This document shows, piece after piece, positions 5,948 to 48,782 of a stretch of 64,000 bases of DNA. This DNA comes from Nodularia spumigena CCY9414 (GTDB lineage Bacteria > Cyanobacteriota > Cyanobacteriia > Cyanobacteriales > Nostocaceae), in contig NZ_CP007203.1 in NCBI RefSeq assembly GCF_000340565.2, positions 4,403,989 through 4,467,988 on the forward strand. Direction: 5' to 3'. The notes beneath the pieces were generated by a model. That model did no database searches. It saw only the letters and a list, made by a program, of their open reading frames with translations, and was not told the DNA's origin. The stretch's first letter is position 1; every line of letters begins with the position of its first letter. A program made the translations under genes and the position numbers.

Positions 5948-6895
5948 TTATGTGTGTTTAGTGCCTCTTTCTTGGGGCAGGGTAATACCTAAACGGCGCT
6001 GTAAGGCTTCAACTACCTCTTCTGCTGACTTCTGACCAAAGTTTTTAATTTCTAACAAGTCTTCTTGAGTGAAATCTAACAAATCGGCCACAGAGTTAAC
6101 TTGTGCGCGTTTGAGACAGTTATAAGCCCGTACAGATAGCTGTAACTCTTCAATGGGAATTTGGGCGGTGGGGTCGTCTGGGACTTCGGCACCTGTTTCT
6201 GTGGGTTCCAGTGAAATATCTTTCAATGGATTGAATAGCTCTACCAGAATACCAGCTGCTGATGATAGTGCTTCTTGGGGCGAAATACTGCCATTTGTCC
6301 AAACTTCTAACAGCAACCTGTCTTTAGGAATTGAGCTTTCACCACGGGCTTCTTCGACACTGTAGTTAACTTTCCGGACTGGCATAAATACCGAGTCGAT
6401 TTGCAGAAAGTCCAAGGAAGTGGCTTCTTCGCGTCCTCGCTCTACTGTGCGATATCCTTTACCTTTCTCAATCCGAAATTCCATTTCCAGTTTGCCGCCC
6501 TCAGCTAAGGTAGCGACATACTGGGTTTGGTCTATAACTTCTACTTCACTGGGCAAATCAAAATGAGCCACGGTGACTGTTGCTGGCCCATTAACGAGTA
6601 ATCTGCCAATCTGGGGTTGAGAAGAATAGCTTCTGAGGATTACTTCCTTCATTTTCATGAGGATTTCCAGCACGTCTTCCCGCACACCCGGAACTGTAGC
6701 AAACTCGTGGCTGACACCGGCAATTCTCACTGCTGTAACTGCTGTCCCCTCTAGATTCGACAGTAAAACCCGCCGCAGCGCGTTGCCAACTGTTGTTCCT
6801 TGACCACGCTCTAGAGGTTCCAGCACAAATTTACTGTAATGGCTCCGACTTTCCTCAGTATTAGACTCTACACATTCAATTTGAAACTGCGCCAC
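5948..6895 (-). CDS. rpoA: RNA polymerase subunit alpha
   Basis: A 315-residue protein. The N-terminal dimerisation domain contains FVLEPLERGQGTTVGNALRR, and the C-terminal domain contains AYNCLKRAQVNSVADLLD and EDLLEIKNFGQKSAEEVVEA, the helix-hairpin-helix that contacts UP elements and activators. It scaffolds assembly of the polymerase core. The linker (about residues 225-245) is acidic and proline-rich. A 266-bp gap separates it from rpsK and could hold a secondary promoter. Confidence 0.98.
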   Translation of the reverse strand: MAQFQIECVESNTEESRSHYSKFVLEPLERGQGTTVGNALRRVLLSNLEGTAVTAVRIAGVSHEFATVPGVREDVLEILMKMKEVILRSYSSQPQIGRLLVNGPATVTVAHFDLPSEVEVIDQTQYVATLAEGGKLEMEFRIEKGKGYRTVERGREEATSLDFLQIDSVFMPVRKVNYSVEEARGESSIPKDRLLLEVWTNGSISPQEALSSAAGILVELFNPLKDISLEPTETGAEVPDDPTAQIPIEELQLSVRAYNCLKRAQVNSVADLLDFTQEDLLEIKNFGQKSAEEVVEALQRRLGITLPQERGTKHT

Positions 6896-7161
6896 GGATT
6901 AGCCTCCCTTCTTTAAGGTGCTGCTAGCAGGCAAATCTATTGCCTCGAATTTACTTTTTTTTCCCTAGCTTTCGCTAGGTAGATTCAACTACCAGTTTTT
7001 AATGGCAGTCTAATTTGATCACCCTATTTAGGGGAAATCATTATTTATTTTGGTTAGTTTGAAGTTTAGCAGCCCTCCCGACAGGAAGAGCTGACTTGCT
7101 TCTCGTTGCTCAAGCCATTTGAAACAATTTGTAGACCCAATGCCTAACAAACAGGTTGCAT

Positions 7162-7557
7162 TTAAACTCGGCGGCGCTTGGGTGGACGGCAACCATTGTG
7201 AGGAATCGGGGTGATATCCCGAATCAAGGTAATTTCCAGTCCTGCTCCTTGAATTGCCCGAATCGCGGTTTCTCTACCTGCTCCGGGGCCACTTACCATG
7301 ACTTCAATTTGGCGCATTCCTTGATCCATCGCCCGACGGGCTGCACTTTCAGCTGCGGTTTGTGCTGCAAAGGGAGTTCCTTTTTTTGCTCCCTTAAAAC
7401 CGCTTGAACCAGCACTGGCCCAGGAAATAACATCGCCATTTTGATCGGTAATGGTGACAATGCTATTGTTGAAAGTAGACTGGATGTAGGCCATCCCGTT
7501 GGGTACGTTGCGCTTCTGCTTTTTGCTCCCGCCTTTTTTAGTTGGTTGTCTTGCCAT
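7162..7557 (-). CDS. rpsK: 30S ribosomal protein S11
   Basis: A 131-residue protein with the S11 core [20 protein letters not shown] and the conserved C-terminus [18 protein letters not shown]. It binds the platform of the small subunit near the E site. It follows rpsM by 54 bp in the alpha operon. Confidence 0.98.
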
Positions 7558-7611
7558 ATTTGTTTAGTTAATCTAAGGTAAAACTTGCCTGGACGAGCAA
7601 GTGTTGAAAGT

Positions 7612-7992
7612 TTATTTGCCTGGAGCCTTCTTCTTACCAGCCACTGTCTGCCTTCTGCCGCGACGGGTTCTAGCATTAGTGCGAGTTCTTTGACCTCTAA
7701 CTGGTAAGCCCATGCGGTGACGACGACCACGGTAGCAACCAATATCAACCAAGCGCTTGATGCTCATGGCTTCTAAACGCCGTAAGTCACCTTCAACTTG
7801 ATAGTTGCTTTCGATTTCGCCACGCAGGGCTGCTACTTCAGCATCACTTAAGTCTTTAACGCGGGTATCTGGGTTTACACCTGTAGCGGCTAAAATTTCC
7901 AGAGACCTTGTTAACCCAATTCCGTAGATATAAGTCAGACCAATTTCAACGCGCTTATCGCGTGGAAGGTCTACTCCGGAAATACGTGCCAC
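7612..7992 (-). CDS. rpsM: 30S ribosomal protein S13
   Basis: A 126-residue protein starting [20 protein letters not shown], with the conserved [18 protein letters not shown] in the tail that reaches the P-site tRNA. It forms intersubunit bridge B1. It follows rpmJ, the normal order. Confidence 0.98.
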
Positions 7993-8104
7993 AATTAATT
8001 TCTCCCTATTGTTATCGCAGTTAGTATGACAAAGGCGTGATAATTGCCTTTGTAGCTTTTAATGGTGATTAATCTGTGTTTTCACTCTTGAATTTATCAG
8101 AGTG

Positions 8105-8218
8105 TTAGCCTTGGCGTTGTTTGTGTTTGGGGTTCACGCAAATCACCATAACGCGACCGCGACGGCGGATCACGTTACATTTTTCACACATTTTCTTGAC
8201 TGAGGCTCGAACTTTCAT
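8105..8218 (-). CDS. rpmJ: 50S ribosomal protein L36
   Basis: A 37-residue protein starting [20 protein letters not shown] and ending NPKHKQRQG. The zinc-binding pattern is intact: CEKC, then a single Cys and a His in ICVNPKH. It starts at ATG 8218 and ends at TAA 8105. It is very short but unmistakable, and it lies in the usual place between infA and rpsM. Confidence 0.97.
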
Positions 8219-8334
8219 GCCTTTTGTAATTGACTCCAAATAGTAAATTATAGCATTTTTAGGGAAATTAATTCACTTAAGTAACTGGGTAGAACCCAAA
8301 AAGATGGTTTTATGGTAAGATTTTCGACATATAA

Positions 8335-8559
8335 CTATTTTTTCCGCAGTCTATAGGTGATTCTACCTTTTGAGAGGTCGTAGGGAGTTAACTCAACTTT
8401 GACGCGATCGCCAGGTAAAATCTTGATGTAATTACGGCGAATCTTACCGGAAATGTGTGCCAAGACATTAAATCCATTGTCCAAATCAACGCGAAACATC
8501 GCATTGGGCAAGGATTCAGTGACAGTGCCTTCCATTTCGATCAAATCTTGCTTAGACAA
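8335..8559 (-). CDS. infA: Translation initiation factor IF-1
   Basis: A 74-residue S1/OB-fold protein: [20 protein letters not shown], then [20 protein letters not shown] and RITYRLRKK. It occupies the 30S A site during initiation. It lies between adk and rpmJ, the conserved order. Confidence 0.97.
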
Positions 8560-8698
8560 TTTGTTTTTTCCTCAATGCAACAATCTCCTATTGATTCAGT
8601 TGCAGCACTTCATCTGCAAAAGAACATATTTTGAGAAATATATCAACAGTTTCTTAATATATCTTAGCTAAAATTGGCCTGTATCTATGCCCTTGTGG

Positions 8699-8728
8699 GG
8701 TAGAGACGCGATTGATCGCGTCTGTACT
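8699..8728. repeat. 30-bp dispersed palindrome, copy 1
   Basis: gtagagacgcgattgatcgc followed by gtctgtact forms an inverted repeat between infA and adk. Four further copies of the same 30-bp design occur at 31288, 32171, 42443 and 48691. This copy has diverged slightly at both ends. Confidence 0.7.
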
Positions 8729-8765
8729 GGGGAGTGAATGGTGATTTTGACAAACCCTACTCAGT

Positions 8766-9326
8766 CTATGAAGTGACGATTTTTTGCAATTCGTGAGTGA
8801 CTTCTTCTTGGGACTGATCGCCATTGACTGTCAACAGTTTTTGGCGATCGCCATAATAATCAATCAATGGCGCAGTTTCAGCACGATAAACGTCTAAACG
8901 ATGACGAATTACCGCTTCGGTATCATCTTTTCGTCCTCTATCGAGTAAACGTGCTACCACAACATCATCTGGTGCATCCAGATTAATTACCCTTTCGCCA
9001 CCCTGGTTCATTTCTGCTAGCAATTTCTCCAGAAAAACTGCTTGTGTGACTTTGCGAGGAAAACCATCAAGAATCCAGCCAGATTTCACATCTGGTTGAC
9101 TAAGGCGCTCCTGTACCAAGTCCTGCACTAACTGGTCGGGGACTAAATCGCCGCTATTTACATAACTTTGAGCTTTAATTCCCAAAGGAGTTTGCTCTTG
9201 CATAGCTTGCCTTAATATTTCCCCTGTAGAAATATGGGGAATATTCAAGTCTTCAGCCAAAATTTGAGCTTGAGTTCCTTTACCAGATCCGGGTGGTCCC
9301 AAGAAAATTAATCGAGTCACTGTCAC
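8766..9326 (-). CDS. adk: Adenylate kinase
   Basis: A 186-residue enzyme that converts ATP and AMP to two ADP. The P-loop GPPGSGKGTQAQ is at residues 10-21. The NMP-binding (HISTGEILRQAM) and DGFPRKVTQA motifs are present, and a short lid gives the usual cyanobacterial length. The start is GTG 9326, sharing one base with the secY stop; a second GTG at 9320 would give the more typical MTRLIFLG N-terminus. The secY-adk order is standard. Confidence 0.96.
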   Translation of the reverse strand: MTVTRLIFLGPPGSGKGTQAQILAEDLNIPHISTGEILRQAMQEQTPLGIKAQSYVNSGDLVPDQLVQDLVQERLSQPDVKSGWILDGFPRKVTQAVFLEKLLAEMNQGGERVINLDAPDDVVVARLLDRGRKDDTEAVIRHRLDVYRAETAPLIDYYGDRQKLLTVNGDQSQEEVTHELQKIVTS

Positions 9327-10639
9327 TATTGTTTCACCATTCCTTCATAACGCTGAGAGATAACGTAAGTTTGGACTTGTTTAGCCGTATCAATTGCCAC
9401 ACCCACTAGGATTAGTAAAGAAGTAGCACCCAAGCCTCTAAAGGTTGGGACTCCTAAAGCACTTTCCACAGCCGTGGGGATAATAGCCACAAAGCCCAAA
9501 AATATCGCACCTAAAAAAGTTAGTCGATTGATCACACGCTCAAGATACTCGCTGGTAGCTTTTCCGGGACGAATACCGGGAATGCTAGACCCCATTTTCT
9601 TCAAGTTCTGCGCTACATCAACTGGGTTAACAATCAACGAAGAATAGAAATAACTGAAGAAAACAATTGAGACTAAGTAGACCAGAGCATAAACCCAAGC
9701 CCCAGAACCTCCAGGACTGAGATAAGTATTGACAATGTTGGCTATTTCAGTATTTCTAGTGAAATTGGCGATTAACAGTGGCAAACTCAAAATTGCCGCC
9801 GCAAAAATAATCGGCATTACACCCCCGGAATTGAGCCGCAAGGGTAAATAACTGCGTTGTTCTGCCAATACTCTGCGACCTACTTGGCGACGAGCCGAAA
9901 TAATCGGGATACGACGGATGCCTTCTTGAACGAAAACAATCCCCACAATTGTCACTAGGAATACCAAAATCAGAACGATTACACGGCCAATGGTTTCTCT
10001 ACCGCCGACTTGCACCAAGTCAATGGTATCGCCTAAAGCTTTAGGTAGCGAAGCAACAATGTTGACAAAAATCAACAATGATGCGCCATTACCAAGTCCT
10101 CGTTCTGTAATTAGTTCTGATGCCCACATGACAAACATGGAACCAGCAGTCAGAGCGATCGCTGTCTCCAGGACAAATGGTATACCTGGATTTAGAGCAA
10201 ATTGCTTGAGGAAGATTGCCGAAAAAGCCACACTTTGAATAGTCGCCCACACTACAGTTACATAGCGTGTGATTTGCGAAATCTTCCGCCGGCCCTGCTC
10301 ACCTTCATTTTTCTGTAAATTTTCTAAAGATGGAATAGCCGCCGTGAGTAATTGGATAATAATGGACGCATTAATAAAGGGTAAAATCCCCAAAGCGAAG
10401 ATTCCCAAAGTGGAAAGTCCTCGTCCAGAAAATATATCCAATAAACCAAAGACGGCATTATTACCAGCTATTGCTTCGGCAAATCTCGCTCTATCAAGAC
10501 CTGGAACTGGCAAAAATATACCGAGGCGAACCAAAATTAAAATACCGACGGTAACAAGCAGCCTACCTCTGAGGCCAGCTGCTTGCGCCATCTGCATAAA
10601 AGTTTCTTGAGCCGTTGGGGCTTTTTCTCGACTGATCAT
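9326..10639 (-). CDS. secY: Preprotein translocase subunit SecY
   Basis: A 437-residue membrane protein with ten predicted hydrophobic segments, forming the SecYEG channel in the plasma and thylakoid membranes. The plug and pore region (FGLLDIFSGRGLSTLGIFAL) and the conserved GLGNGASLLIFVNI are seen. The C-terminal cytosolic loop includes GIRPGKATSEYL. It follows rplO and precedes adk, as in most bacteria. Confidence 0.98.
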   Translation of the reverse strand: MISREKAPTAQETFMQMAQAAGLRGRLLVTVGILILVRLGIFLPVPGLDRARFAEAIAGNNAVFGLLDIFSGRGLSTLGIFALGILPFINASIIIQLLTAAIPSLENLQKNEGEQGRRKISQITRYVTVVWATIQSVAFSAIFLKQFALNPGIPFVLETAIALTAGSMFVMWASELITERGLGNGASLLIFVNIVASLPKALGDTIDLVQVGGRETIGRVIVLILVFLVTIVGIVFVQEGIRRIPIISARRQVGRRVLAEQRSYLPLRLNSGGVMPIIFAAAILSLPLLIANFTRNTEIANIVNTYLSPGGSGAWVYALVYLVSIVFFSYFYSSLIVNPVDVAQNLKKMGSSIPGIRPGKATSEYLERVINRLTFLGAIFLGFVAIIPTAVESALGVPTFRGLGATSLLILVGVAIDTAKQVQTYVISQRYEGMVKQ

Positions 10640-45089: not shown

Positions 45090-45128
45090 CGGGTTAACCA
45101 CTTCATTAGCGGTTAGCCCGCTTTTTTT
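45090..45128 (+). terminator. Rho-independent terminator after ycf35
   Basis: cgggttaacc and ggttagcccg form a 10-bp stem with one G-T pair across an 11-base loop, followed by seven T residues. It lies 30 bp after the ycf35 stop and is the clearest intrinsic terminator in the window. Confidence 0.85.
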
Positions 45129-45197
45129 ATTGGGACTGGGATTTATTTCTTGGTTGCCCATTTTTTTGTTGCCATGATTTTCAATCAAAAACTATAT

Positions 45198-45617
45198 ATG
45201 GGTACAATAAATTTGTTAACTTTATTACATCCATATATGAGCTTTGACGAAATTGCACGTAAGATAGCGTCTCTAGGACTACCAGCAGTTATGTTTGCCG
45301 TGGCTTGTTCTATCGCTGCTGGTACCGGGTTGGCTGGTGGAGCAGTTATTACAGCCGCCTTAGCTATGTTGGGTGGACCTTTTGGAATGGTTGCAGGTTT
45401 AGGTTTATTAGGTATTGCGACTGTTATTGGTGATGCCGTATCTCAATTTGGTATTGAAGAATTATTGGTTGCAGTTTACACAATACAACGACAGCAGCAG
45501 GGAAGACCTTGTAGCGATATTGTTGGAGAGATAAATAGCTTATGGCTTTCAAATGACTTGAGAAGAAGAATCATTAATAGAATGGGGTGTGAAAAGAATC
45601 ACCACAAAGAGTTTTAG
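45198..45617 (+). CDS. Hydrophobic glycine-rich hypothetical protein
   Basis: A 139-residue protein from ATG 45198; ATG 45237 (MSFDEIARK) is equally possible, as neither has a clear Shine-Dalgarno. The centre is a long hydrophobic stretch with glycine-zipper spacing (AAGTGLAGGAVITAALAMLG, then GPFGMVAGLGLLGIATVIGD). The C-terminus is hydrophilic (VAVYTIQRQQQG to LRRRIINRMGCEKNHHKEF). I do not recognise it. Glycine-zipper helices occur in membrane-active peptides and holin-like proteins, but nothing here proves such a role. It follows a strong terminator, so it has its own promoter. Confidence 0.6.
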   Translation: MGTINLLTLLHPYMSFDEIARKIASLGLPAVMFAVACSIAAGTGLAGGAVITAALAMLGGPFGMVAGLGLLGIATVIGDAVSQFGIEELLVAVYTIQRQQQGRPCSDIVGEINSLWLSNDLRRRIINRMGCEKNHHKEF

Positions 45618-45713
45618 TGTCCATCCAGTAGGGTGGGTATAGCCCAAGGGGCATGGCTACGCTAAAGCGTCAGCGTAACCCACCATTACCCCTGAAATCT
45701 GATATATTTGGCA

Positions 45714-45938
45714 ATGGAAGTTTTAAAACTTACGACGACGATTGATGAATCAGGATATTTACATCTGAACATTCCCACGCAGTTAGCGGCTGGTGAAGTA
45801 AATATTGTAGTTGTATTGAATCCAGTTTCGTCAAACGAGGAGCAGAAACCCAGATATGATTTCTCTGATTTGGTAGGAAAGTTAACTTGGGAAGGAGATG
45901 CAGTAGCTATACAAAGAAGTTTACGCGATGAGTGGTAA
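45714..45938 (+). CDS. VapB-like antitoxin
   Basis: A 74-residue protein from ATG 45714 (MEVLKLTTTIDESGYLHLNI). The N-terminal half resembles small antitoxins with a beta-rich DNA-binding part (PTQLAAGEVNIVVVLNP). The C-terminal half (RYDFSDLVGKLTWEGDAVAI) looks like a toxin-binding peptide. Its stop overlaps the start of a PIN-type toxin remnant by 11 bp, the usual layout of vapBC. The toxin is truncated, so the antitoxin no longer has a partner here. Confidence 0.65.
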   Translation: MEVLKLTTTIDESGYLHLNIPTQLAAGEVNIVVVLNPVSSNEEQKPRYDFSDLVGKLTWEGDAVAIQRSLRDEW

Positions 45939-46005
45939 TCGCTACTTGCTCGACACGAATGCAATTGTGGCTCTACTACAACGAAATTATACTCACAAAT
46001 TATGA
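45928..46005 (+). pseudogene. PIN-domain toxin (VapC-like), truncated after 25 residues
   Basis: The frame reads MSGNRYLLDTNAIVALLQRN and stops after YTHKL. RYLLDTNAIVALL is the N-terminal strand of PIN ribonucleases with the first catalytic aspartate. A complete VapC has about 130 residues, so three of the four acidic active-site residues are gone. The next gene begins 7 bp later, so the break coincides with the start of the DUF488 unit. Confidence 0.75.
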
Positions 46006-46011
46006 TGAATT

Positions 46012-46692
46012 ATGAAAATATTCACTATTGGACACTCCAATCATTCAATTGAAACTTTTATTGAAAATTTAAAACAAAATGGAATTACGGCTGTAGCAGA
46101 TGTACGCTCTAGCCCTTACAGTCGGAGATTTCCACATTTCAATCAACCTGCTTTTAAAAAAGCACTCCAAACCGTAGATATTGCATATGTCAGCCTTGGC
46201 GATAATTTAGGCGCTCGTCCTCATGATCGAAGCTGTTACGTAGAGGGTATGGCTCGTTATGATTTAATTAGTGCCACGAAAGCTTTCGCAACAGGGTTAA
46301 ATCGTCTGATTAAGGGTGCTGAACAACATCAAATTAGTTTAATGTGTGCTGAACAAGACCCTATTGTTTGCCATAGAGCTATTTTGGTTTGTCCACATTT
46401 GAAAAAGACAGGTTTAGAAATTAACCATATTCATAAAAATGGTGACTTAGAATCACATGAATGTTTAGAAGATAGACTATTAAAGCAGCATAATTTATAT
46501 AAATTGTTGCCTGATAACCAAAATTCTGTTAAACAACTTTCTCTCTTTGATATGCGACCTATAGATACTATAGAAAAACCCCTTTCTCGTGAGGAATTAA
46601 TTCAAAAAGCATATCAGTTACAAGGTGACAGAATAGCGTATGTAGAACGGACATATACAGAAACAGAAGATTCTCATGAGCGAGCAAGTTAA
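46012..46692 (+). CDS. DUF488 family protein, long form
   Basis: A 226-residue protein. The DUF488 domain covers residues 1-150 with the conserved FTIGHSNHSIETFIENL, VADVRSSPYSRRFPHFNQ, YVSLGDNLGARP and the cysteine-containing LMCAEQDPIVCHRAILV. The two cysteines and the His/Arg pair probably form the active or nucleotide-binding site. A helical C-terminus of about 75 residues ends in RIAYVERTYTETED. The biochemical function of DUF488 is not established. It overlaps the next DUF488 gene by 17 bp. Confidence 0.88.
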   Translation: MKIFTIGHSNHSIETFIENLKQNGITAVADVRSSPYSRRFPHFNQPAFKKALQTVDIAYVSLGDNLGARPHDRSCYVEGMARYDLISATKAFATGLNRLIKGAEQHQISLMCAEQDPIVCHRAILVCPHLKKTGLEINHIHKNGDLESHECLEDRLLKQHNLYKLLPDNQNSVKQLSLFDMRPIDTIEKPLSREELIQKAYQLQGDRIAYVERTYTETEDSHERAS

Positions 46693-47125
46693 TCTATTTA
46701 CTATTGGCTTTACTCAGAAAAAAGCCGAGCAATTCTTTGAAACACTTATCAAAGCGGGGGTTAAGCGAGTCATTGACACTCGACTAAATAATGTTTCCCA
46801 ATTGGCGGGATTTGCCAAAAAGAATGATTTAGAGTATTTTCTCCGTAAAATTGGAGAAATTGAATATATCCATATTCTTGATTTAGCTCCAACTAAAGAT
46901 ATTCTCGAAGAATATAAAAAAAAGCAAATAAACTGGGCATTATATGAAAAGAGGTTCAATCAACTCATCACAGAGAGACAGATTGAGAAGAAGGTTAATT
47001 CAGACCTTTTAGATGAAGCTTGTTTGTTGTGTAGTGAAGCAAAGCCTCATAATTGCCATCGTCGGTTAGTTGCTGAGTATTTGCAAAATAAGCTAAACAC
47101 ACCTATCAAAATTCATCACCTCTAA
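46676..47125 (+). CDS. DUF488 family protein, short form
   Basis: A 149-residue protein made almost only of the DUF488 domain: FTIGFTQKKAEQFFETLIKA, RVIDTRLNNVSQLAGFAKKN and ACLLCSEAKPHNCHRRLVAE. It is clearly paralogous to the previous gene but distant, with GFT for GHS and DTRLN for DVRSS, so the pair may form a heterodimer. The 17-bp overlap implies coupled translation. The same cysteine motif (CSE-x4-CHRR-like) is kept. Confidence 0.88.
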   Translation: MSEQVNLFTIGFTQKKAEQFFETLIKAGVKRVIDTRLNNVSQLAGFAKKNDLEYFLRKIGEIEYIHILDLAPTKDILEEYKKKQINWALYEKRFNQLITERQIEKKVNSDLLDEACLLCSEAKPHNCHRRLVAEYLQNKLNTPIKIHHL

Positions 47126-47162
47126 ACGTAATCTTGAAAAGGCTGCGAATCAGAGGTTTAGA

Positions 47163-47903
47163 ATGCCTATTTTTGAAATTATCTGCCTTGCCAAATCTAC
47201 TAAGCATGGCGGAATTTGTATTGCTGGTTTGAAAACAGATGGTTCGGGTTGGCTGCGTCCAGTCTCTAATAAAAGAGATGGTACTCTATACCCAGAGCAT
47301 TATACTCTAACCAATGACAGTGAACCTCAACTTTTTGACATTATCAGAATTCCATGTACTAAACCTGAGCCAAAATGCCACCAACCTGAAAATTGGTTAA
47401 TAGATTCTAGGAAATCATGGGAAGTATTAGGAAGTTTAACTTTAAGTCAAGCTAGAAGGTTGCTAAGTCCAGAAATTCAAAGACATTCTTCTCCAGAACT
47501 GTTAGGTACTTCAGATAAACAAATTTGTTATGAAAATCTGGAAAAATCACCTGTTCAGTCTTCATTAGCACTGATAAAACCGGAAAAAGTTCAGTGGCAA
47601 GTTAAAACAATCGATAAGAAAAAATTCAGGTGTCTTTTCTCTTTATCTGGAAATTCTTATGATTTACCGATTACAGATTCTATATGGACAGATAAACTTG
47701 ATTATTTTGAAGAAGGAATATATTCTTGTGAAGAAGTGATAGAAGAGTTAAAATTGCATCAGTTTGAGCCGGATAAATTCAGACTGACTATTAGCTTAAG
47801 CGAACCTTTCATACCTTCTGGGCAAGAAAAAAAGTTTTGCTATAAATTAGTGGCAGCAGTCATAAATGTTGCAGATGTGAAGCAACGCTTAGGATGGCTT
47901 TAA
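47163..47903 (+). CDS. Dual OB-fold domain protein
   Basis: A 246-residue protein resembling the family named dual-OB-domain proteins. The first half reads FEIICLAKSTKHGGICIAGL and GSGWLRPVSNKRDGTLYPEH; the second repeats an OB-like pattern (FRCLFSLSGNSYDLPITDSI, then WTDKLDYF). OB folds usually bind nucleic acid or oligonucleotides. It lies 37 bp after the second DUF488 gene on the same strand, so the three form one apparent operon. The gap carries only a weak ribosome-binding site. I cannot assign a precise function. Confidence 0.75.
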   Translation: MPIFEIICLAKSTKHGGICIAGLKTDGSGWLRPVSNKRDGTLYPEHYTLTNDSEPQLFDIIRIPCTKPEPKCHQPENWLIDSRKSWEVLGSLTLSQARRLLSPEIQRHSSPELLGTSDKQICYENLEKSPVQSSLALIKPEKVQWQVKTIDKKKFRCLFSLSGNSYDLPITDSIWTDKLDYFEEGIYSCEEVIEELKLHQFEPDKFRLTISLSEPFIPSGQEKKFCYKLVAAVINVADVKQRLGWL

Positions 47904-48557: not shown

Positions 48558-48690
48558 ATCACATCAAGATTTGTCCAGTATTAATAGCATATAAAAAATT
48601 TTAAGGGTGGTTGTAAAACCACCCCTCTAATCCCCTCATATTTAGAATTTACTGGCAACACCCTGATTGCAATACTTTTCGGTTAAGGAA

Positions 48691-48720
48691 TGTAGAGACG
48701 TTCCATGGAACGTCTCTACA
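48691..48720. repeat. 30-bp dispersed palindrome, copy 5 (perfect)
   Basis: tgtagagacgttcca followed by its exact reverse complement tggaacgtctctaca makes a perfect 30-bp palindrome between the Uma2 gene and ndhD. It is the most symmetrical member of the family of five. Confidence 0.85.
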
Positions 48721-48782
48721 AGGGTTTTCGGCTCACGAATTTGCTCCCACCGAACAGTATTGACCCGGATTGGGTATTATAT

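Follow-up and report, generated by a model that had tools for sequence, protein, structure and literature searches.

A cyanobacterial copy of the phage-defence candidate PDC-M45 with a predicted sliding-clamp-binding motif in one of its two DUF488 proteins

Introduction

The rhodanese-phosphatase superfamily includes DUF488. DNA phosphorothioation of the Dnd/Ssp type is defined by a cysteine desulfurase together with a PAPS-reductase-like gene. Burroughs and Aravind 2023 (lqad029) reportedly predicted that members of a RapZ-C-DUF488-DUF4326 clade process DNA ends in conflict systems. Several published observations bear on the domains concerned. An archaeal DUF488-HTH fusion to a ParB-CTPase fold binds CTP (PMC12704722, in excerpt). 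DUF4326 is placed in the rhodanese-phosphatase superfamily and is predicted to process terminal phosphates on the ribose of ADP-ribose derivatives, and SLOG domains are predicted to sense ADP-ribose-type ligands (PMC9503650, in excerpt); DUF4326 has also been linked to DNA modification and replication (PMC7824862, in excerpt). The pentapeptide QL[S/D]LF is a common sliding-clamp-binding consensus, and binding of a QLSLF peptide to Bacillus subtilis DnaN was measured (PMC12309361, in excerpt; see also PMC4549789, in excerpt).

Here we describe a three-gene unit in a 64,000-nucleotide stretch of the Nodularia spumigena CCY9414 genome (the window, to which all position numbers without a locus label refer). 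The initial annotation had held that no function for such a set was established. That statement needs correction, as the set is already catalogued in PADLOC as the phage-defence candidate PDC-M45 and Pfam names its domains (DuOB, DUF488-N3a). Our literature search found no mechanism for PDC-M45, no mention of the name and no anti-phage test of the three-gene set; it also found nothing on the DuOB domain, judged by titles, and no title or abstract opening about DUF488 function. The predicted clamp-binding pentapeptide in the variable tail of one of the DUF488 proteins is new in this analysis.

Results

Composition of the unit and its conserved residues

The unit comprises genes B, C and A (Table 1). 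The compact one-strand layout described in the initial annotation was reproduced from the ORF coordinates: B and C overlap by 17 bp (46676-46692), and 37 bp (47126-47162) separate C from A. The domain calls, two DUF488 proteins and a dual-OB protein, agree with Pfam. B matches DUF488 with 91 bits and C with 84.4 bits (1.3e-23), both above the cut-off of 22.2 bits, and C additionally matches DUF488-N3a (1.7e-9). A matches DuOB with 165.1 bits (cut-off 27), spanning positions 2-210 of the 210 positions of the model. These two families account for all above-cut-off Pfam matches of the three proteins, and the cysteine desulfurase and PAPS-reductase-like gene of Dnd/Ssp phosphorothioation are absent from the unit. 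Profiles of A, B and C compared with solved structures gave no convincing E-value, the best being 2egv for A (0.035) and 6to3 for C (0.14), with none for B.

Table 1. Features of the unit and of the DNA preceding it (window coordinates).
Feature	Position	Strand	Description
Additional block separating DUF1257 from the unit	45128..45988	.	No counterpart in the compared relatives that bear the unit
Truncated PIN-toxin-like reading frame	45928..46005	+	DNA match to a longer copy stops at 45988
Gene B	46012..46692	+	226-aa DUF488 protein with C-terminal tail; PF04343 1.2e-25; PDC-M45B 1.2e-71
B residues 112-122, C-x-E-x-D-P-x-x-C-H-R	46345..46377	+	Predicted active-site loop
QLSLF, B residues 175-179	46534..46548	+	Predicted sliding-clamp-binding motif in variable linker
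Gene C	46676..47125	+	149-aa DUF488 (N3a-like) protein; most conserved member; PDC-M45C 6.8e-67
C residues 116-130, C-x-L-C-S-E-x-x-P-x-x-C-H-R-R	47021..47065	+	Predicted active-site loop
Gene A	47163..47903	+	246-aa dual OB-fold protein; DuOB PF22557 3e-48; PDC-M45A 3e-41

All three parts of PDC-M45 in PADLOC-DB 2.0 are thus matched by proteins encoded adjacently on one strand (Table 1), and no difference in composition is visible. A second PADLOC model, PDC-M19A, has a DUF488-like part resembling B and C and scores much lower (7.9e-18 for B, 5.5e-23 for C).

The two DUF488 proteins are strongly divergent, as first read from the window, and yet homologous (22% identity; profile-profile E-value 2.4e-14). 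Both match PF04343 and retain the cysteine loop, which we take to be catalytic in DUF488; in these respects they resemble the DUF488 part of the RapZ-C-DUF488-DUF4326 clade. The motif C-x-E-x-x-P-x-x-C-H-R is common to B (112-122) and C (119-129), and its retention in both proteins is borne out across the phylum. Among 39 aligned B sequences, C112, E114, P117, C120, H121 and R122 are present in 100% and D116 in 97%, and among 43 aligned C sequences C116, L118, C119, S120, E121, P124, C127, H128, R129 and R130 are all at 100% (six duplicate or partial loci, L036, L048, L053, L075, L077 and L078, were excluded from these alignments). Both proteins are therefore predicted to be active enzymes and look catalytically competent. 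Window C is 52-59% identical to six distant copies aligned with it. In A, residues S12, K14, C19, W30, R32, P33, E76, N77, T171 and D172 are each present in 74-80 of 80 sequences, a conservation that probably exceeds the need of plain OB packing.

Co-occurrence of the three genes in the phylum

We searched 386 genomes of the phylum with DuOB at an E-value of 1e-3 and with B and C at 1e-20. DuOB was found in 43 genomes, B in 48 and C in 41; 52 genomes carry any part and 37 carry all three. In each of these 37 the genes lie next to one another on the same strand and fall within 5 kb, in the order B-C-A in 33 and A-B-C in 4 (the tally disregards second A pieces in G235 and G377). Each pair of genes co-occurs with a Fisher p < 1e-39, a descriptive value because the 386 genomes are related. 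The initial annotation had supposed that the three genes form one unit. Their joint presence in 37/52 genomes upholds this for most carriers, but 15/52 hold partial sets (B only in 6, A only in 3, B and C in 3, B and A in 2, A and C in 1). Several of these look decayed, with a B-A deletion fusion at L164 and split or truncated genes at L077, L161, L165, L166 and L168. At five loci with solitary B (L156-L160), the gene is full-length and intact-looking with its CHR loop, and A or C was not recognised nearby. The linkage is strong yet not absolute. Spread is patchy, since the two other genomes of the same genus that we searched are without the unit, and carriage extends to prophage-like regions and plasmids. 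The A-B-C unit is a genuine, linked and mobile one.

A conserved pentapeptide in the variable tail of B

B has a C-terminal tail beyond its DUF488 domain, and this tail contains a conserved short peptide. We aligned 44 non-redundant B proteins of the phylum, after removing identical sequences, the decayed fusion L164 and copies <190 or >300 aa in length. Their identity has a median of 53% and a minimum of 29%. Residues Q175-L-S-L-F179 are kept at 98, 98, 93, 98 and 100%, whereas the five residues on either side are conserved at no more than 36%, in a flanking linker that is variable and gapped. QLSLF occurs strictly in 40 of the 44 and QLx[LI]F in 43; the four exceptions have QLALF, QLNLF or QLSIF or, at L044, no motif. 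The 40 QLSLF copies are encoded by 28 different synonymous 15-mers. The motif is kept even in the B protein of L073, which is 30% identical to window B and comes from a genome related by phylum only.

The strict pattern QL[SD]LF was found in 0/254 neighbour proteins and 0/121 control proteins, and likewise in 0/80 A, 0/86 C and 0/30 DUF4326 proteins. None of the 17 B proteins that we have from other phyla contains it either. Since these and the DUF4326 partners lack it, clamp docking is not general to the system. Eleven of the 17 outside-phylum B proteins carry [DE][LMF]F in the tail, whose likeness to the weak clamp motifs QADMF or xxxLF (PMC12309361, in excerpt) is only a suggestion. The looser pattern QxxLF occurs in 9/86 C proteins (QVNLF or QINLF near the N terminus, window C included) and in 1/80 A proteins, so a loose match means little.

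Known sliding-clamp clients such as PolC, other DNA replication and repair proteins and IS transposases carry the same consensus pentapeptide, which in B sits in the variable tail, and binding of B to DnaN is predicted from the motif. A restricted-codon scan of the Nodularia genome gave 25 DNA matches against 20 for a reversed control pattern. Three of the 25 are in frame within ORFs of at least 120 aa, namely B, an SNF2-like protein and one other large protein. By sequence search of the PDB, one of the two large ORFs besides B, at L182 and L183 (around 2,576,412 and 2,763,442), is SNF2-helicase-like, and the other gave no match. Neither the MutS ORF nor the DnaE fragment of this genome contains a QL[S/D]LF-type motif, and an IMS polymerase was not found there; the motif is therefore uncalibrated on the organism's own known clamp clients, and docking of B to the sliding clamp in cyanobacteria through its QLSLF tail is a prediction.

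Exchange of B for DUF4326

In gammaproteobacterial plasmids the place of B is taken by mSLOG-DUF4326 or DUF4326. A search with the C profile identified 37 viral contigs, some of them near-copies of each other, that show the same exchange: beside C, B is present in 11, DUF4326 in 26 and both in 0. A is recognised in 35 of these contigs, which were selected for C, and a divergent A in a 36th. The DuOB, DUF488 and (mSLOG-)DUF4326 sets of proteobacterial plasmids and viral contigs share with the window unit the A and C families and the tight order, and differ in having DUF4326, with QLSLF in 0/30, in place of B. A tblastn search of a phage collection at E 1e-5 returned no DuOB or C, and a pattern scan of viral contigs for A alone confirmed none.

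In a tree of 82 C proteins, the B-type and DUF4326-type copies cluster, and at least two changes between them are forced. The C proteins of L044 and L166 are placed among the viral-contig copies, which suggests transfer. For the two DUF4326 proteins that we scanned, there was no PADLOC match at 1e-5. Profile comparison did not support homology between DUF4326 and DUF488 (37% and 0.9% probability), a relationship that rests on the literature.

Genomic contexts in other genomes

Two copies of the unit are embedded in BREX operons, in the orders BrxC-PglX-[A-B-C]-PglZ-BrxL (L122) and PglX-[A-B-C]-PglZ-BrxL (L124). Others are linked to the regulator pair capH/capP, as capH-[A-B-C]-capP at L121 and capH-capP-[A-B-C] at L129 and L039; CapP of this pair is activated by ssDNA (PMC13373217, in excerpt). 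A CBASS cyclase (2.9e-148) is encoded at L039 and a viperin (1.3e-89) at L043, and at L038 the unit lies among csm6, csx16, cas1 and cmr genes of a type III-B CRISPR locus, by annotation. Neighbours of the unit on viral contigs include terminase large subunits, with 10/121 proteins matching one such model.

At a PADLOC threshold of 1e-10, 106 non-redundant nearest neighbours of 35 phylum loci (without L071 and L077) match 93 models, including LeoA, LeoBC, AriA, AbiLi and a methyltransferase among the matches listed. The 121 control proteins match 43 models, with PD-T4-6 accounting for 20/25 among the matches listed. These neighbour counts are of models and not of proteins, as several models can match one protein; enrichment near the phylum copies is modest. 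The suggestion that the unit might lie in defence islands thus holds for the BREX, CapH/CapP, CBASS, viperin and CRISPR contexts elsewhere but fails in the window, where the neighbours of the unit do not form such an island.

Gene C also occurs in 120 plasmid records, with 53.8% identity in 44/60 among the matches listed. In 4/4 of the IncHI2-type plasmids that we opened (L113, L199-L201), a solitary C, 54% identical, lies directly downstream of uvrA in a formaldehyde-detoxification cluster without A and B. In the Kosakonia radicincitans plasmid L113, where this arrangement occupies 6158-9432, uvrB is encoded on the opposite strand about 9 kb away, where the cluster ends. All four plasmids share identical DUF488 and UvrA protein records and therefore count as one lineage. 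The Bosea plasmids L117 and L118 share another arrangement, in which a B-like DUF488 gene, with no recognised DuOB, stands beside opposite-strand genes and dcm. This arrangement may represent a further set with a DUF488 member.

History of the locus in the window

Pfam identifies DUF1257 and Uma2 genes as neighbours of the unit in the window; a further neighbour we take to be an ndhD-like gene. The initial annotation had placed the unit at a broken toxin locus. The truncated toxin-like frame is real, as its similarity is restricted to the beginning of a 143-aa ORF in a genome of the same genus, an ORF that by our reading of its sequence, made without a family search, is probably a PIN toxin. 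The block that ends in this frame (Table 1) comprises a 155-aa ORF, a gene resembling an antitoxin and the first part of the PIN-toxin-like gene, the toxin label being a reading of the sequence; the antitoxin-like protein matches RelN weakly (9.5e-4, below the cut-off). The 155-aa ORF (45150-45617) is partly glycine/alanine-rich and has no Pfam match.

We reject the possibility that the unit inserted into the toxin gene, because relatives carry the unit beside DUF1257 without the toxin block. The distance from this DUF1257 region to the unit is at most about 110 bp in L031, L033, L034 and L045 and about 1 kb in L048, and homology between the window and unit-bearing relatives resumes at 45990-46010. 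With the unit beside DUF1257 in five relatives and the block extra here, the unit is the older resident of a variable site and the toxin pair the newcomer; the unit thus did not move into a broken locus but predates the pair. In G193 (L091), of the same genus, there is no unit but a toxin-antitoxin-like pair with the 143-aa toxin-like ORF and a 408-aa ORF, which is presumably a response regulator. In G245 (L092), a 93-bp stretch shortly before a Uma2 gene is 83% identical to 46064-46158 inside B, indicating that the unit was once present there and then lost.

Within the genus, the stretch from DUF1257 to the ndhD-like gene varies in content, which may be the unit, a pair resembling toxin and antitoxin, a response-regulator-like gene, Uma2 or other genes. 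Dispersed repeats flank the unit (45628-45700 and 48670-48763), parts of which match many sites in this and same-genus genomes, and the second contains a palindromic stretch (48692-48719).

Discussion

The composition and linkage of the unit, its conserved active-site residues, the QLSLF motif and the defence and DNA-repair contexts of its relatives are observations, from which we infer a possible way of working. B and C, as rhodanese/phosphatase-type enzymes each with a cysteine loop, would work together as a heteromer, and the dual-OB protein A would work with them and present or sense nucleic acid. In cyanobacteria, the QLSLF tail would dock B to the DNA sliding clamp, so that the complex would act on DNA under copying or repair. 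DNA ends, phosphates or sugars would be processed or modified, and invading DNA would thereby be hindered. The heteromer, the clamp binding, the DNA substrate, the reaction and the anti-phage outcome are all putative steps of this scheme. We tentatively favour the reading that this known anti-phage candidate consists of clamp-docked B and C cysteine enzymes which, with A, process or modify DNA in defence, although we give it somewhat less than an even chance. The defence or nucleic-acid role that had been guessed from the window remains the best guess, given the PDC-M45 matches, the co-occurrence and the defence contexts in other genomes. A more specific form of the proposal, which we regard as rather doubtful, is that the defence rides on the host clamp: QLSLF would tie a complex of two cysteine enzymes, processing new invader DNA or its ends, to the replication fork, and elsewhere mSLOG-DUF4326 with another cue would replace the docking partner.

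Two other explanations are in our judgement unlikely, and to an equal degree. The unit could process nucleotide signals or NAD/ADP-ribose, with B and C (or DUF4326) acting on small nucleotide derivatives that arise during infection, from which they would strip phosphates or other groups, and A or mSLOG binding the ligand, in which case DNA would not be the substrate. The exchangeable partner is indeed DUF4326, often with mSLOG, for which action on ADP-ribose derivatives with SLOG as the sensor is predicted (PMC9503650, in excerpt), and the near-invariant polar residues of the dual-OB protein A resemble those of a ligand pocket. However, the clamp motif in B, the uvrA-linked C and the BREX-embedded copies point to DNA, to whose modification and replication DUF4326 is also tied in a paper that draws on the same unpublished work as PMC9503650 (PMC7824862, in excerpt). 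The clamp motif, of a kind common among proteins of replication and repair (PMC12309361, in excerpt), would also suit a role in DNA repair or self-protection, whereby the unit would repair or tolerate lesions from phage, other defences or chemicals, travelling with defence genes and blocking no phage. C directly after uvrA in the formaldehyde-detoxification cluster, with uvrB at its far end, and control by CapH/CapP, which responds to ssDNA (PMC13373217, in excerpt), are consistent with such a role. The uvrA-linked C nevertheless stands without A and B in one lineage, and the patchy spread with losses and transfer resembles that of defence genes more than that of core repair.

Sulfur transfer, in which rhodanese-like cysteines would pass persulfide sulfur to DNA or RNA (phosphorothioation or thio-nucleosides), appears very improbable. 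The several invariant cysteines, three of them in C, would suit it, as would the membership of DUF488 in the rhodanese-phosphatase superfamily, in which DUF4326 is also placed (PMC9503650, in excerpt). The unit proteins, however, match only DUF488 and DuOB above cut-off, and the annotated plasmid stretches that we examined contain no desulfurase, PAPS-reductase or sulfur-carrier names, although many of their genes are labelled 'hypothetical' and L116 is unannotated. We see just as little likelihood that the unit is a metabolic or stress operon carried passively in variable islands. The window copy is not among defence genes, PADLOC matches near the phylum copies give only a modest signal and some genomes retain only B, all of which speaks for such an operon; the two BREX embeddings, the CapH/CapP linkage and the carriage on prophage-like regions and plasmids argue against it.

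For the preferred reading of a clamp-docked defence enzyme, the clamp peptide, the exchange of B for DUF4326, the embedding in BREX operons and the linkage to CapH/CapP turn a bare list of domains, that of a catalogued defence candidate, into a specific and testable proposal. A clamp-guided defence enzyme, if true, would show how such a system finds replicating invader DNA.
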